Below are positions 26,813 to 32,894 of a stretch of DNA of 32,894 bases, piece by piece. How positions within the stretch are numbered: position 1 is the stretch's first letter; each line of letters begins with the position of its first letter. Under the pieces are notes generated by a model. That model did no database searches. It saw only the letters and a program-made list of their open reading frames with translations, and was not told the origin of the DNA. A program made the position numbers and the translations under genes. The stretch is from a virus, in the IMG/VR virus record IMGVR_UViG_3300032331_001208, positions 1 through 32,894 of that record. One strand, 5' to 3'.

Positions 26813-26942
26813 GGTTCTTCTTGTATTGTTCGATTTCTTCTAAGGCTATTTTGATTTCCAACGGCGTAGGTTCCTCGGCTCCACACAAGATGCCGAGTCG
26901 CTCCTGCAGTCGGTATTGGATCTCAATGTCCAACTCGGTCAC
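26778..26942 (-). CDS. 54-residue helical early protein
   Basis: Read by direct translation. It begins at GTG overlapping the stop of the Ig-like gene (GTGA) and ends in TGA at 26778-26780, overlapping the next gene by 35 nt in another frame. The sequence MTELDIEIQYRLQERLGILCG, then EEPTPLEIKIALEEIEQYKK is amphipathic and Glu/Leu-rich, coiled-coil-like, with no Gly/Arg shadow composition. No family recognised. Confidence 0.6.
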   Translation of the reverse strand: MTELDIEIQYRLQERLGILCGAEEPTPLEIKIALEEIEQYKKNHDSNPEVQPAR

Positions 26943-27469
26943 GGCACCCTCCGCAGCTTCACGGAGTCACCCTCTGGTATCACCACCGCAGCACGCACCA
27001 TGCAGGCATTGGTGACGAGCACTGGCGTCTTGTAGAGCGCAGACAAGGCTGTGGGTTCCTTGCCATCGAGCGTGTAGCGCACCGGCAGGTTGCCCAGCGA
27101 GCAGACCAGACGGATCTGACTAGGGCCACGGATGTCCACGGTGTCCCCGCGCACCTCGGTGTTGTTCACGAAGATCCGAATCACTCGCTGCCAACGCACC
27201 TTGTAGATCGCAGAGTGACCGCTGGTGCTCTCCACACGATACGTCCCGGCGTCGGCCTCCTGTGCGGCTGGGATCTCAAGCACGCGGTTGGTAGCTCCGG
27301 GGATGGGCTGCCCACCCAAGGACCACTGGTAGTCCTCCGCGGTGTGCGGTGCCTCAAGGCGAAGCGGCAGGTTCTCCAGTGCGATCTGGGCTGATGCGGA
27401 GAAGGCAACGCAACTGACAAGGAATCCTTGTATGTTGGTGTAACAAAGACTGGTCAGTGTTTGTTTCAT
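26939..27469 (-). CDS. Secreted Ig-like protein with chitobiase-C-like domain
   Basis: A 176-residue exported protein in the early gene block. Residues 1-27 are a signal peptide (IQGFLVSCVAFSASA, cleavage likely before QIALEN). Residues about 40-85 match a Verrucomicrobial-type Ig-like domain: DYQWSLGGQPIPGATNRVLE ... ADAGTYRVESTSG. Residues about 110-175 resemble the C-terminal domain of chitobiase/hexosaminidase-like proteins: PVRYTLDGKEPTALSALYKT followed by PVLVTNACMVRAAV. Made early and exported, it may act in the periplasm or on the cell surface, e.g. in exclusion of later phages. Domains are seen; role is inference. The ATG overlaps the previous gene (ATGA). Confidence 0.75.
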   Translation of the reverse strand: MKQTLTSLCYTNIQGFLVSCVAFSASAQIALENLPLRLEAPHTAEDYQWSLGGQPIPGATNRVLEIPAAQEADAGTYRVESTSGHSAIYKVRWQRVIRIFVNNTEVRGDTVDIRGPSQIRLVCSLGNLPVRYTLDGKEPTALSALYKTPVLVTNACMVRAAVVIPEGDSVKLRRVP

Positions 27470-28617: not shown

Positions 28618-28956
28618 TCAGAAGTCGAGTCCGCTGATAGAACGGACGTTTTTCTTCCAGTTGCGGTTGCCAACGGGATCCGCGCTCTTGGGGCAGTAGC
28701 GGTCGGCGAGGAAGTCTATAAACTTGCCGGGCTTACCAGCAGCCTCCCAGCGGGTGTGGTTGTTGCGGATCGTGTTCAAGCAGACCTTTCTGGCCTCGGC
28801 TGCATTGGCGACTTTGACCGACAAGATGCCGTATGGGGCCTTTGCCTTAGCACCACCCTCGACGCGATAGATGGCGTCAGCGATTCGGTTGGCGTCTAGA
28901 GCGAGAGCGTTGGTTGCGACGAGAGCGAACAGGACGAGATACTTTGTAAGATACAT
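28618..28956 (-). CDS. Exported lysozyme-like protein, endolysin candidate
   Basis: A 112-residue protein with an N-terminal signal (MYLTKYLVLFALVATNALA, cleavage near residue 19). The mature part (NRIADAIYRVEGGAKAKAPY, then RKVCLNTIRNNHTRW and FIDFLADRYCPKSADP, GNRNWKKNVRSI) follows a small phage lysozyme-like pattern where the Glu in YRVEGG (E33) is in the place of the catalytic acid, and C59 and C88 could form a disulphide. A Sec-exported endolysin can pair with the holins at 8.2-8.5 kb, though it lies about 20 kb away and in the early block. Assignment from pattern only. Confidence 0.6.
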   Translation of the reverse strand: MYLTKYLVLFALVATNALALDANRIADAIYRVEGGAKAKAPYGILSVKVANAAEARKVCLNTIRNNHTRWEAAGKPGKFIDFLADRYCPKSADPVGNRNWKKNVRSISGLDF

Positions 28957-29015
28957 GCGAGTTGCTGGTTAAGTTAAGTCCGCGTTGGTCGGATGCGCGG
29001 CCCCCGTTGGAAGTC

Positions 29016-29387
29016 TTAGTTCTGGCAGCCAGCGATCAGTCCAACTTTCGAGATCATCCGGCGATTTATTGCGGTCTTGTTCATTCGTCCGACATAGGCA
29101 AGACGATCACCCTCCCGGTGATACACAGCGAACGGAGAATCGCTAAGGCATGAAGAAAACGGATACCACTTGTGAAGGAGGTTCAAATTTTCACCGACCA
29201 ACTTGATGATGTACCATATCTGATTGGATTCGTCGGTGAACACGTTGGTCACTTCCATGCCGCTGTGGGGTTTCATGTTCATCGCGTCTTTTGCCACAGC
29301 CGGGTTGTAGCTGATGTCGAAACTGGTGGCGTTGACGGCCTCTTCGATGTTGTTGAACTCGCGGCTGATCTTGATGTCGTTGTTCAT
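29016..29387 (-). CDS. First gene of the leftward early series, uncharacterised
   Basis: A 123-residue protein translated from the ATG right behind the left promoter and its A/C-rich leader. The sequence has alternating strands and turns (SFDISYNPAVAKDAMNMKPH, VTNVFTDESNQIWYIIKLVG, FAVYHREGDRLAYVGRM) and a final short basic helix (NRRMISKVGLIAG). As the promoter-proximal gene it may be a takeover protein made at once after infection. No known family recognised. Confidence 0.7.
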   Translation of the reverse strand: MNNDIKISREFNNIEEAVNATSFDISYNPAVAKDAMNMKPHSGMEVTNVFTDESNQIWYIIKLVGENLNLLHKWYPFSSCLSDSPFAVYHREGDRLAYVGRMNKTAINRRMISKVGLIAGCQN

Positions 29388-29434
29388 GTTCTTGTTAAGT
29401 TACTTGTTGTTGTTGGCTACTTGCTACGGGAAAC

Positions 29435-29463
29435 AGTTAACCACACCCCCAACACGCTGTCTA
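29435..29463 (-). promoter_or_regulatory. Left early promoter (TAGACA-17-TTAACT)
   Basis: On the minus strand -35 TAGACA (29458-29463) is 17 nt from -10 TTAACT (29435-29440), sigma70-like spacing; -35 matches five of six consensus positions, -10 only three. The site and the leader after it are nearly repeated at the right promoter, which strengthens the call. The ATG follows 47 nt after the -10. Confidence 0.65.
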
Positions 29464-29474
29464 CTGTTTTCTAC
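29460..29474 (-). promoter_or_regulatory. Candidate RHH operator, GTAGA direct repeats
   Basis: GTAGA occurs twice on the minus strand at exactly 10-bp spacing (29460-29464 and 29470-29474), one helical turn, and one copy overlaps the -35 box. Ribbon-helix-helix dimers bind short direct or inverted repeats of this kind. Candidate only. Confidence 0.45.
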
Positions 29475-29576
29475 TTTTTTTTCCAGATCCATGACGGCAC
29501 CGAGCGGCAGTGTCGTGGCTGTCTTTTTCTGTAGATTTGTGTTGCGCTTTCCCGTCTGTCTGGTACTTGCTGCACC

Positions 29577-29729
29577 GTGACAGCTAAACCGCGCAGGCCG
29601 GTCGCGCTCAAGACCGTGCAGATCGACTCTAAGCTACACACCAAGCTCGTGGAATATGCCCGAGATGGTGGATTCAAGCTCAAGAGTCTGGTCGAGAAAG
29701 CAATCCAGCAAACCTACATACTACGATGA
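29577..29729 (+). CDS. Ribbon-helix-helix regulator
   Basis: A 50-residue protein read by direct translation, starting at GTG and ending in an ATGA overlap with the RecT-like gene. After a basic N-terminus (MTAKPRRPVALK) the pattern TVQIDSKLHTKLVEYARDGG and FKLKSLVEKAIQQ gives strand, helix A, turn, helix B of the Arc/MetJ/CopG fold. As first gene of the recombination series it probably represses its own promoter and perhaps the two flanking ones. The fold assignment is good; the target is inferred from the repeats at 29460-29474 and 32512-32526. Confidence 0.75.
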   Translation: MTAKPRRPVALKTVQIDSKLHTKLVEYARDGGFKLKSLVEKAIQQTYILR

Positions 29730-30553
29730 GCAACCTACCCGCAGTCGCAACGCAACAGAACGCCGTCCACACCTACGACAAGGTAACAGACCCCATGGCA
29801 GCCGCTACCCAGTTGGGTGAGTGGATCTGTCGCTCTGGCATGTTCGGTGCAGACCGTACTGAGCAGGGCAACCTCCTCGCTCTGCAGTGCATCGTGGAGC
29901 GCAAACCGCCGCTGGAGTTGGCCAAGCACTACCACGTCATCCAAGGCCGTCTCTCGCTCCGTGCAGATGCCATGCTTGCGCTCTATCGGGAACGCGGAGG
30001 AAAGGTCGTCTGGAAGCAGTTTGACGCTGCTGGCGCTCGTGCTCAATGGATCTACGACGGCAACGACATCGAACTGGCCTACACCGCTGACGACGCCAAG
30101 GCTGCTGGGTTTCTTCCCGCTCGTGGTGGATCCGGCTGGGCCAAGTTCCCGGCTGAGATGATGCGTGCTCGGTTGATCTCTAAGGCGGTGCGCATGCTCT
30201 GCCCAGAGGTTGTCACTGGCACCTACACGCCCGAAGAGATCGCTGACTTCGCGCAGCCCGCTCCGGTGCAGGTGCTCGCTACGCAACCGCAGGCTAAGGC
30301 TGTGGACGTCGAGGTGGTGCCTACCGCGGTCACGGCTGACGAGCCTAAGCTCACCCTGCAGGCGCAGGTGGTCGAGCTGCTGGCCAAGGCTGACCTTCTC
30401 GCTGCTGGCCGGGAGTTCCTCATTGCCAAGTCGTGGATCACCGCTGCCGAGACGATCAAGGATCTCAGCGAGTCCCGGGCTGCTAAGATCCTCGGCAAAC
30501 CGGAAGCGTTCATTATGGCGGTGTCAGCACACAAGACCACGGAGGCTGTGTGA
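29726..30553 (+). CDS. RecT-like single-strand annealing protein
   Basis: A 275-residue protein. The region from about residue 30 to 160 follows the RecT pattern: LLALQCIVERKPPLELAKHY, RLSLRADAMLALYRERGG, then YTADDAKAAGFLP and WAKFPAEMMRARLISKAVRM with LCPEVVTGTYTPEEI. It anneals complementary strands during recombination-dependent replication. The last about 100 residues are an Ala-rich tail with VELLAKADLLAAG. Immediately after come an exonuclease and a resolvase, the usual partners. GTGA links it to the exonuclease gene. Confidence 0.8.
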   Translation: MSNLPAVATQQNAVHTYDKVTDPMAAATQLGEWICRSGMFGADRTEQGNLLALQCIVERKPPLELAKHYHVIQGRLSLRADAMLALYRERGGKVVWKQFDAAGARAQWIYDGNDIELAYTADDAKAAGFLPARGGSGWAKFPAEMMRARLISKAVRMLCPEVVTGTYTPEEIADFAQPAPVQVLATQPQAKAVDVEVVPTAVTADEPKLTLQAQVVELLAKADLLAAGREFLIAKSWITAAETIKDLSESRAAKILGKPEAFIMAVSAHKTTEAV

Positions 30554-31557
30554 GCGTTCACGCACGTCCATCTGCCCTACCGGCACTGGCGAAGTCGCCC
30601 CGGTACGAACCCGGTCCACCGACGGCTGCGACCGAGGCTGGCACCGACCGGCATCTGGCTCTGTCCGAGATGTTCTCAGGCAAGACCGCACTGGTCTCGA
30701 TGCTGCCAGACGTTGAGCGCGAGGCTGTAGAGTGGGCCTATGGCTACGTCCACAGCAACATCCTCACCGGATCAGAGATCAAGTCCGAGCTGCCCGTGGA
30801 CATCTTGCGTGACGGCAAGGTGGTGCTCCAAGGCACTGCGGATGTCGTGGTGGGCAACCAGCTCTTTGATCTGAAGTGGGTCGAGCGCAACTACGCGGAG
30901 CAGATGGCGGCTTACGCGCTGGGGCTGATGCAGGCGCATGGCTTCCTTGAGATCGTCGTGCACCTATTGTTCGGTGAGAAACGCAAGGCGACTCGCTATG
31001 TCATCACCCGGGATCAGGCAGAGGCTATCGTCTACCCGATCCTCGACGCGGTGAATGACCCGACTACTCGGTGCCGTATCTCGGACTACTGCGGCTGGTG
31101 CAAGCACTCGACCTACTGCAAGGTGAGGCTGGCCGAGATCAACAAGGTGGCTGATGGCTACGAGATGGTGCAGATCGACGACCTGTCGGTGGCATCTCCA
31201 GAGTCTCTAGCCAAGGCGCTTAACCTAGCCACGGTGGCTGCCAAGTGGGCCGAGGAGGTCAAGGAGTACTGCACGCTGGCGGCTAAGGATGGCGTTGACA
31301 TCCCCGGGTACTCACTTAAGAGCCGAACTGGCAGTCGAGAGATAGCTCCGGAGCAAATCAACGAGGCGTTCGGGCGGTCCGGACTGTCCTCCGAGGCATT
31401 CATCGGTGCCTGCAAGCTGTCGATACCCAAGCTCATCGAGGCAATGCAGGCGCAGGGTCTGACCCGCAAAGACGCAGAGAACCGCATAGACGAGCGTCTG
31501 GCTGGTCTTATAAAGCACCGGCCTGCGTCAACCTACCTAGCCAAGGATCGCTCGTGA
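30550..31557 (+). CDS. PD-(D/E)XK exonuclease, Cas4/DUF2800-like
   Basis: A 335-residue nuclease starting at GTG. Catalytic features in order: TEAGTDRHLAL (G-T-x2-H, residue about 31-35), GTADVVV (95-101) with a conserved Asp, LFDLKW (D107, K109; the D-x-K pair), and Q118-x3-Y122. A four-cysteine cluster C175, C181, C184, C190 (CRISDYCGWCKHSTYC) resembles the Fe-S or zinc site of Cas4/AddB-type enzymes. It would make 3' single strands for the RecT-like protein. The C-terminal about 130 residues are helical and also fit the DUF2800 type. Its end overlaps the RuvC-like gene by 4 nt. Confidence 0.8.
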   Translation: MSVHARPSALPALAKSPRYEPGPPTAATEAGTDRHLALSEMFSGKTALVSMLPDVEREAVEWAYGYVHSNILTGSEIKSELPVDILRDGKVVLQGTADVVVGNQLFDLKWVERNYAEQMAAYALGLMQAHGFLEIVVHLLFGEKRKATRYVITRDQAEAIVYPILDAVNDPTTRCRISDYCGWCKHSTYCKVRLAEINKVADGYEMVQIDDLSVASPESLAKALNLATVAAKWAEEVKEYCTLAAKDGVDIPGYSLKSRTGSREIAPEQINEAFGRSGLSSEAFIGACKLSIPKLIEAMQAQGLTRKDAENRIDERLAGLIKHRPASTYLAKDRS

Positions 31558-32009
31558 AAACGCTCGTAGCGGTCGATCCCGGCGCCTCTGGTGGCCTTGC
31601 CATACGCGACTGCGGCGGATCCATCTGGCTGCAGCCTATGCCGGATAGTTTGCCAACGTTGGTTGGGATGTTGCGGACATACAAGACTGCTGACGCTGAA
31701 CTCTGGATCGAGGAGGTCCCGAAGTTCACTGGACGCAACATCCCCAGCAGCACAACGGCTGTCTTGTTCCAGAGCGTGGGTAGGGTCGAGGGTGCGGCAG
31801 TGGCTCTTGGCTACTCGCTGCATCGTGTACCTCCCAAGGTCTGGCAGGAGCCTCTGGGGCTGGGTGGCCGCAAGTCGGTCGATACGCAGGCGCAGTGGAA
31901 GCGAAAGCTGCGTGGAAAAGCTGAGGAGCTGTACCCGAGTCTTGACATTACGCTGGCCACGGCTGATGCAGTTCTTGTCCTCCACTTTGTTCTGGGTGGG
32001 GGACGCTAG
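31554..32009 (+). CDS. RuvC-like Holliday-junction resolvase
   Basis: A 151-residue RNase-H-fold protein. The start KTLVAVDPGASGGLAI carries catalytic D8 and the G-rich turn; E53/E54 lie in LWIEEVP; and TADAVLVLHF with D138 stands where RuvC-type enzymes hold the third acid (A-D-A). KVWQEPLGLGG and KRKLRGKAEEL give the basic surface. It would cleave branched DNA from recombination or packaging. It starts by GTGA overlap with the exonuclease gene; no Shine-Dalgarno is needed there. Confidence 0.8.
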   Translation: MKTLVAVDPGASGGLAIRDCGGSIWLQPMPDSLPTLVGMLRTYKTADAELWIEEVPKFTGRNIPSSTTAVLFQSVGRVEGAAVALGYSLHRVPPKVWQEPLGLGGRKSVDTQAQWKRKLRGKAEELYPSLDITLATADAVLVLHFVLGGGR

Positions 32010-32167
32010 TAGGTTGGTTGCATGGTGGGCCGCGCATACCAGACCACGCGGATCAATTTAGCGCATCGAGTGGTGCGTGACCCCGGCATGGTTTCTCCCC
32101 TCCTAGGTGGACCTTAAAGCAGTTCTACGGGCTGGTGCCGGGGTGTTTCACTCTCTTAAAGTGAGGC
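32010..32167. other. Gene-poor gap with inverted repeat
   Basis: A 158-nt stretch after the resolvase. It contains a 9-bp inverted repeat ACCCCGGCA (32080-32088) and TGCCGGGGT (32136-32144) 47 nt apart, and a small TCACT/AGTGA hairpin before the next gene. A 31-codon frame opens at 32022 (MVGRAYQTTRINLAHRVV) but lacks other support. No tRNA fold could be made. Confidence 0.35.
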
Positions 32168-32425
32168 GTGGACGCTGCCTCTCGGATCAACGAGCTGACC
32201 GCAATGGTCACGTCACTTGCATCCGAAAACGAGCGACTCAAGGACACGATCAACTTCCTGCTGAATAGACTCGATGAAAACGAAGAACGACTTCTGGGAA
32301 TGCAAGCTAAAACCGTCAACCGTAGTGGACGTGTGGGGCGAGGCGGAGCTGCGCGTGGGCGAGATGAAGGAGAAGGCGACGGTGTACGAGCGAGACGGCA
32401 AGTTGTTCATCCGCAGGACGGCTGA
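32168..32425 (+). CDS. Coiled-coil protein, doubtful C-terminal half
   Basis: Starts at GTG. The first about 46 residues (ASRINELTAMVTSLASENER, LKDTINFLLNRLDENEERLL) form a good heptad coiled coil, the remainder (RSGRVGRGGAARGRDEGEGD) looks like a shadow of the next gene, which overlaps it by 152 nt in another frame. Either the true product ends in shadow sequence, or a frameshift joins the coiled coil to the following gene. An alternative start is the ATG at residue 13. Confidence 0.5.
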   Translation: MDAASRINELTAMVTSLASENERLKDTINFLLNRLDENEERLLGMQAKTVNRSGRVGRGGAARGRDEGEGDGVRARRQVVHPQDG

Positions 32426-32462
32426 GTTTCAAGCCAAGTTCCGCAAGCTGACGCAGTCCTGA
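32274..32462 (+). CDS. 62-residue beta-rich protein, uncharacterised
   Basis: A 62-residue protein from an ATG inside the coiled-coil gene. The sequence (NDFWECKLKPSTVVDVWGEA, RVGEMKEKATVYERDGKLFI) has alternating strands with a YERDGKLFIRR hairpin and a helical, basic end (AEFQAKFRKLTQS). Composition is that of a real gene. No family recognised. It is the last gene before the right promoter. Confidence 0.6.
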   Translation: MKTKNDFWECKLKPSTVVDVWGEAELRVGEMKEKATVYERDGKLFIRRTAEFQAKFRKLTQS

Positions 32463-32511
32463 CACGCGTTTTAGGCCCGTAAACATTGGTCAGAACGGTG
32501 CTGAAAGATTT

Positions 32512-32526
32512 CTGTATTTTTCTGTA
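32512..32526 (+). promoter_or_regulatory. Candidate RHH operator, CTGTA direct repeats
   Basis: CTGTA occurs at 32512-32516 and 32522-32526, ten bp apart and overlapping the -35 box, mirroring the phased repeat at the left promoter. TTTTTCTGTAGA (32517-32528) also recurs exactly at 29524-29535 before the RHH gene. Candidate only. Confidence 0.45.
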
Positions 32527-32553
32527 GACGATACAGCAGACCTGTGGTTAACT
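32525..32553 (+). promoter_or_regulatory. Right promoter (TAGACG-17-TTAACT)
   Basis: -35 TAGACG (32525-32530) and -10 TTAACT (32548-32553) are 17 nt apart, as at the left promoter. The following leader (TGGTTAACTATTCCCGTCGC and AAGTAACTCAAAAAG) also matches. It drives the gene beginning at 32596, 42 nt downstream of the -10. Confidence 0.65.
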
Positions 32554-32595
32554 ATTCCCGTCGCAAGCAATTAAACCAAGTAACTCAAAAAGAGC

Positions 32596-32894
32596 ATGAC
32601 CACCGCAACCGCAACTCAAACCGCAACCTACACCAAGCTGACCAACGGAGACTGGGGAATCAAAGTCACTGGAGACATCTCCGCCGGAGCCAGCGTGACC
32701 GTGACAAAGCGAGACGGCAGCACCAAGTCCGAGATTGTCGGCAAGGTAGTCTGGACCGGCAAAGACAAGTACTCCGACGCTCAGGTGTCCATCTGCACGG
32801 TGCAGCAGGTCCAGCGCGTCTCGTGCCGCCCGGCTTACCGTGGTGGACGCAGGGAGTGCGACGAATGTGGGGACTATGTGACCGCTGGAACCCG
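32596..32894 (+). CDS. Early protein with cysteine motif, cut by window end
   Basis: At least 99 codons from the ATG at 32596, open to the window edge. After a Thr/Ala start (MTTATATQTATYTKLTNGDW) it has a small beta module (IKVTGDISAGASVTVTKRDG, IVGKVVWTGKDKYSDAQVSI). The visible end shows ECDECGDYV, probably half of a zinc ribbon whose other cysteines lie beyond the window. It has its own promoter copied from the left early one, so it is likely expressed early. Function unknown. Confidence 0.7.
   Translation, partial: MTTATATQTATYTKLTNGDWGIKVTGDISAGASVTVTKRDGSTKSEIVGKVVWTGKDKYSDAQVSICTVQQVQRVSCRPAYRGGRRECDECGDYVTAGT

Follow-up and report, generated by a model that had tools for sequence, protein, structure and literature searches.

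Two copies of a promoter-like unit

The window studied here, the whole stretch of DNA that was analysed, is the complete IMG/VR record of an uncultivated phage (IMGVR_UViG_3300032331_001208; 32,894 bases), and it carries a repeated unit, made of a promoter-like part and a leader, on either side of its recombination genes. On the minus strand, left of about 29,490, lie g28618 (28618..28956), a conserved gene of 112 amino acids (aa) that heads the leftward operon, the replication genes with DnaB, terminase, portal, major capsid protein and tail genes; the portal and part of the tail genes were named from position and size alone. The genes from 29577 rightward are all on the plus strand and encode a 50-aa ribbon-helix-helix-like protein (29577..29729; hereafter protein 29577), which is the first gene of the recT operon and a candidate regulator, a RecT-like annealing protein (29726..30553), an exonuclease (PHROG 69 / DUF2800; 30550..31557) and a RuvC-like Holliday junction resolvase (31554..32009). 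Past the RuvC-like gene come, on the same strand, two further small genes, then the right unit and last an accessory gene truncated by the record end. No Rfam family and no tRNA were found in the window.

The left unit points to the minus strand. Its promoter-like part (29435..29464) reads GTAGAC, 13 nucleotides (nt) and TGTGGTTAACT, with the boxes TAGACA (29463-29458) and TTAACT (29440-29435) 17 nt apart, and its leader (29388..29434; TTTCCCGTAGCAAG ... AAGTAACTTAACAAGAAC ahead of the start codon) extends up to the ATG at 29387. Upstream of it, an A-rich tract (29465..29486, minus strand) that is common to the relatives G015 and G011 contains another GTAGA (GTAGAAAACAGTAGAC), 10 nt ahead of the one in the unit. 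The right unit points to the plus strand, its promoter-like part (32513..32554) reading TGTATTTTTCTGTAGAC, 13 nt and TGTGGTTAACT, with the boxes TAGACG (32525-32530) and TTAACT (32548-32553) again 17 nt apart and a leader (32555..32595) that ends at the ATG (32596). The letters common to both units are GTAGAC, 13 nt, TGTGGTTAACT, 1-2 nt, TTCCCGTnGCAAG and then AAGTAACTYAA shortly 5' of the ATG.

The sequence-only reading had described two promoter-plus-leader copies here, conserved beyond the boxes, and this similarity proved to be far above chance. The two ~90-nt segments align locally with a score of 34, whereas shuffled pairs (5,000) reached 20.5 at most and no other place in the window exceeded 19. 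Homologous units are present in 11 further related phage records (13 copies in all), and an nhmmer model built from the 13 units gave no matches in the window other than these two (E 3e-39 for the right unit, 2e-32 for the left one) and strongly matched one place in each relative carrying the unit. Conservation indeed continues through the leader, and the copies are homologous control units, which in relatives precede a variety of small genes. Nine viral contigs, all of this phage group, contain an exact 19-mer of the leader, each a single time. A gapped DNA pattern built from the window's unit gave no match in the viral contigs, because the relatives read TTCCCCGT where the window reads TTTCCCGT.

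The distance from GTAGA to TGTGGTT is constant in 13/13 copies, and the intervening 13 nt show a mean identity of 46%, versus 83% over the 26 nt that begin with TGTGG. Because the register of GTAGA/TgTGgTT is fixed while the spacer between them is variable, we read the unit as a putative promoter with two contact boxes. The 17-nt spacing is also fixed in the 13 units, and the -35 box TAGACA matches 5/6 of the sigma-70 consensus (TTGACA and TATAAT, 16-18 nt apart).

An accessory-gene slot in related phages

The relatives were fetched whole or almost whole, and their RecT is 77-96% (G001-G009) or 56-67% (G010-G014 and G022) identical to that of the window. G001-G009 share the gene order 29577-recT-exo-ruvC-g32168-unit-(accessory gene)-g28618-...-dnaB, followed by terL, structural and tail genes where the record reaches, all on one strand. 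G001-G009 and G011 have a single unit downstream of ruvC on the strand of recT; G011 and G015 have one unit each before an accessory gene, followed by g28618 in G011; and the single unit of G022 is directly upstream of the recT operon in the same direction. Wherever both are on the record, the units of relatives share the strand of recT, g28618, dnaB and terL. The two-unit layout was found in none of the relatives examined. Since each has one unit, two outward-pointing units are a feature of this record only among those examined; the opposite orientation around the recombination genes noted from the sequence is thus present in this record and absent from every relative examined.

The two copies, previously described as duplicated control units, are homologous but not equal. 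They belong to two subtypes that differ upstream of the -35 box. The right unit is of the R subtype, with TTTCTGTAtTTTTCTGTAGAC upstream and a place after ruvC-g32168, the position found in G001-G009. The left unit is of the L subtype, with AAAAGTAGAAAAAAGTAGAC upstream, and is related to the units of G011, G015 and G022; those of G011 and G015 are likewise of the L subtype, and there the stop codon of the preceding gene falls in GTAGAC. The left leader (window 29381-29445), however, is 95% identical to that of the R-subtype units of G003 and G008, and this match runs exactly from TGTGGTT to the ATG. Thus, the upstream half of the left unit is of the L subtype and the half from TGTGGTT to the ATG is R-like, which suggests that the two halves have different histories.

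The genes directly after the unit vary among the phages (64, 65, 78, 78, 99, 108 and 123 aa) and are mostly unrelated. The left accessory gene of the window (29016..29387, minus strand; 123 aa) has no relative that was found in the viral contigs, and the right one (32596..32894, plus strand), cut by the record end, has orthologues directly before g28618 in G003, G005 and G008. In relatives g28618 follows this slot: G004, G006 and G009 have g28618 straight after the unit, with no accessory gene between, and phages with an inserted accessory gene repeat the leader tail CTTAACCAGTAACT before g28618. G003 has two tandem cassettes behind its single unit. Moreover, a CCGCG-n-CGCGG stem is found 3' of several accessory genes. 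At the 3' end of the left cassette (28964..29009, minus strand), a GGGGGCCGCG-n11-CGCGG stem is followed by CTTAACTTAACCAG, which is the leader tail of g28618. G001 and G015 have in common a 329-nt block (91% identity) reaching from TGTGGTT to the CGCGG stem, whereas their neighbouring genes are diverged and differently arranged and their units are of opposite subtypes upstream of the core.

We propose, at a probability of roughly 60%, that the two copies are control regions at the 5' ends of small, exchangeable gene cassettes, belonging to a mobile accessory-gene slot beside recombination genes that are inverted or mis-joined in this record. The unit would consist of a promoter of the host type (GTAGAC and, at 17-nt spacing, TTAACT extended by TGTGG) and a leader that is A/C-rich and unstructured. 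One unit would, in most relatives, separate the recT-exo-ruvC block from the operon that runs from g28618 through the replication genes towards terminase, and short accessory genes would be swapped between the unit and g28618 by recombination, with the conserved core and leader as the 5' exchange site and the CGCGG stem plus leader tail as the 3' one. Movement of the cassette by recombination in its ends is suggested by the one clear pair, G001 and G015, and by the boundary pattern. The unit may be early and may drive the g28618 operon. The window would then hold two occupied cassettes, the right one keeping the upstream neighbours of the slot and the left one its downstream neighbours, and the reversed orientation of the recT block against the rest of this record would account for there being two. 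This inversion, whether a real rearrangement or a false metagenome join, would be no part of the normal working of the unit.

Several points weigh against this reading. The fit of the unit to sigma-70 is poor, as the -10 box TTAACT matches at 3/6, partly offset by TGTGG, and a scan with the sigma-70 consensus found no site; bacterial genomes searched with the terminase for a host gave no match. In addition, the records used are fragments from metagenomes, and the same sample yielded some of the relatives. The unit of G022 precedes the recT operon instead of the accessory slot, and clear cassette sharing across distant phages was seen in one case only (G001/G015).

Three further features of this region were observed. 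A stem (GTGGGCCGCGCATACC...ACGCGG; 32025-32081, plus strand) that resembles the 3' stem of the cassettes lies just past the RuvC-like gene and is kept in G003, G004, G005 and G008. The g28618 product has a signal-like N-terminus and a DRYCPxSxDPxGNRNWKxN motif, and the protein has no match in Pfam or PHROG; its relatives reach down to 41% identity in phages of up to 62 kb, and its strand is opposite in G020 and G023. A gene at 26939-27469, within the early/replication cluster, has a match to Hoc-like head decoration proteins.

The junction beside the left unit and alternative readings

The upstream sequence of the left unit joins the recT upstream region (29525..29576, plus strand; TTTTTCTGTAGATTTGTGTTGCGC...) at a junction seen in no relative. 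Homology of the recT upstream region to relatives begins only at about 29525, and the island at the junction (29487..29524), found in this record only, has no match in them; an exact 24-mer from it is absent from the viral_contigs collection. The junction is in frame with the stop codon at the left unit, where it ends ...GKKSRKQ*, faintly resembling the end (...KKSRKK*) of the gene that lies before the unit in G015 and G011. This likeness hints that the junction may cut the gene normally preceding L-subtype units. Among the records examined, the recombination block opposes the orientation of the rest of the genome only here.

Two causes of this inversion, both within our explanation, have to be weighed. 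The first is a chimeric contig, to which we give a little less than an even chance: amplification or assembly would have joined, head to head at 29487-29524, sequences from two strains occurring together or from two parts of a single genome that has tandem cassettes, and the two-unit layout would then exist in no single phage. The gene order kept in close relatives is broken only here, and the record stops about 70 nt short of the position of g28618 in relatives, while g28618 already stands on the other side. Moreover, the L and R cassettes each retain one side of a slot that is single in relatives. Inverted joins with deletion of the intervening sequence make up more than 85% of the chimeras formed in multiple displacement amplification (PMC1855051), which would bear on this record if its sample was amplified. 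On the other hand, identity to relatives is similar on either side of the junction (88-91% versus mostly 88-95%), the identity profile along the window gives no sign of strain mixing, and no obvious repeat is shared at the junction.

The second cause, slightly less probable, is a real inversion of recT-exo-ruvC in this phage after it gained a second cassette, perhaps via recombination between the inverted units. It agrees with the uniform divergence across the junction and with the tandem cassettes known in G003, and flipping the stretch between the units of the window gives back the gene order of relatives. However, neither the inverted state nor an intermediate occurs in any relative, and the left breakpoint lies upstream of the unit, outside the shared core.

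The unit itself might be a translation or RNA element, such as a leader enhancer or ribosome site, duplicated by chance, rather than a promoter. The poor sigma-70 fit would suit such an element, as would the leader tail AGTAACTY, which recurs without the boxes before g28618 and accessory genes. But the fixed register of GTAGA and TGTGGTT around a variable spacer argues against it, and the leader shows no supported RNA structure (-0.2 kcal/mol, no covariation), so that we consider this unlikely.

Even less credible is the arrangement that the sequence-only reading had favored, deliberately opposed duplicate early control units that bracket the recombination genes and jointly time a leftward and a rightward early unit. 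Both units are intact, divergent and outward, each with a leader and an open reading frame, but this layout is found in no relative, each having one unit, on the strand of recT where both are on record. Moreover, the unique junction adjoining the left unit seems to cut the gene that normally precedes L-subtype units. A designed bracketing pair is thus disfavored.

The recT promoter and known cassette systems

A weaker form of joint timing, between the recT promoter and the unit, has some support from shared letters. TTTCTGTAGA has exactly two occurrences each in the window, G002, G005 and G006, one at the recT promoter and the other at a unit. The longest string common to the two regions is 11-13 nt in 9/10 genomes (the exception is G009), a length that at most 0.35% of random pairs reach, though the genomes compared are not independent. 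GTA-N7-GTAGA is present in every unit of the close clade and in most recT promoters, where one half of the repeat belongs to a stop codon. The -10-like region of the recT promoter (window 29525-29576) reads GGTACTT here versus GGTATCT in all close relatives; with GGTATCT lost, the recT promoter of this record may be weaker or changed.

Protein 29577 could bind the sequence common to the recT promoter and the unit. It has a weak PHROG match to Arc-like proteins (E 0.006), and 5/11 of its homologues, the window copy not listed among them, have sub-threshold matches to Omega_Repress of Pfam (up to E 0.0097). Its AlphaFold2 (AF2) model has two helices at a pLDDT of 65 with no strand assigned. In G010-G014, a clear palindrome (CCCTAGATTTAGGG or CTGTAATTTTTTACAG) is found at the recT promoter just before the small regulator gene, and it is likely the regulator's own operator. 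The palindromes were also looked for at the unit in G010-G014 but occur at the recT promoter only, save one weak match at the G011 unit. Since the palindrome of these distant relatives is not at the unit, the comparison does not support a shared regulator across the whole group. In a combined reading, which is most improbable, the GTAGA direct repeats (10-nt period) at the unit and at the recT promoter would be the operator of protein 29577, which would time the recombination together with the cassette and replication genes, and the recT block would be able to flip by way of the inverted units, the divergent order here being one natural state.

Phages have many short early genes without an assigned role. 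A mobile slot with promoter/leader and stem ends would explain how such genes are swapped with their expression kept, outside the T4 group, and its ends would mark places to seek new accessory genes. A caution is that a symmetric layout in a metagenome contig can stem from a single rearranged or mis-joined record.

Phage morons are autonomous small genes with their own promoter and terminator that vary among relatives. The cassettes resemble them in having a small gene under its own putative promoter that varies between relatives, but the promoter of the unit would also lead into the conserved g28618 operon, and it stays where the accessory gene is absent (G004, G006 and G009).

The SAS of cluster K mycobacteriophages is a 13-bp site (5'-GGGATAGGAGCCC) found in many copies per genome upstream of starts, and ESAS adds inverted repeats (PMC3203893). 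Like the present unit, these are repeats just 5' of the starts of small non-structural genes, kept in relatives before different gene families (PMC3203893). The sequence of the unit, however, is wholly different, with GTAGA direct repeats, a promoter-like core and a leader, and it is normally in single copy.

T4-type phages have mobile regulatory cassettes called PeSLs (Arbiol et al., 2010; Comeau et al., 2014, cited in PMC4503421), in which a control element, made up of an early-type promoter and a stem-loop, flanks small interchangeable genes and apparently supplies homology for shuffling. Here, too, a common control element precedes differing small genes (64 to 123 aa, mostly unrelated). 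The sequence of the unit and the phage group are, on the other hand, unrelated to T4. PeSLs further join promoter and terminator stem-loop in one motif and have several copies per genome in densely shuffled regions, whereas here the two lie at opposite ends of the cassette, the stem lacks a T run, and each relative has one slot and unit. Because the composite promoter-stem motif is lacking, with the CGCGG stem at the 3' end of the cassette, we do not class the unit as a PeSL. By analogy, its role is comparable to that of the T4 PeSLs, outside that family.

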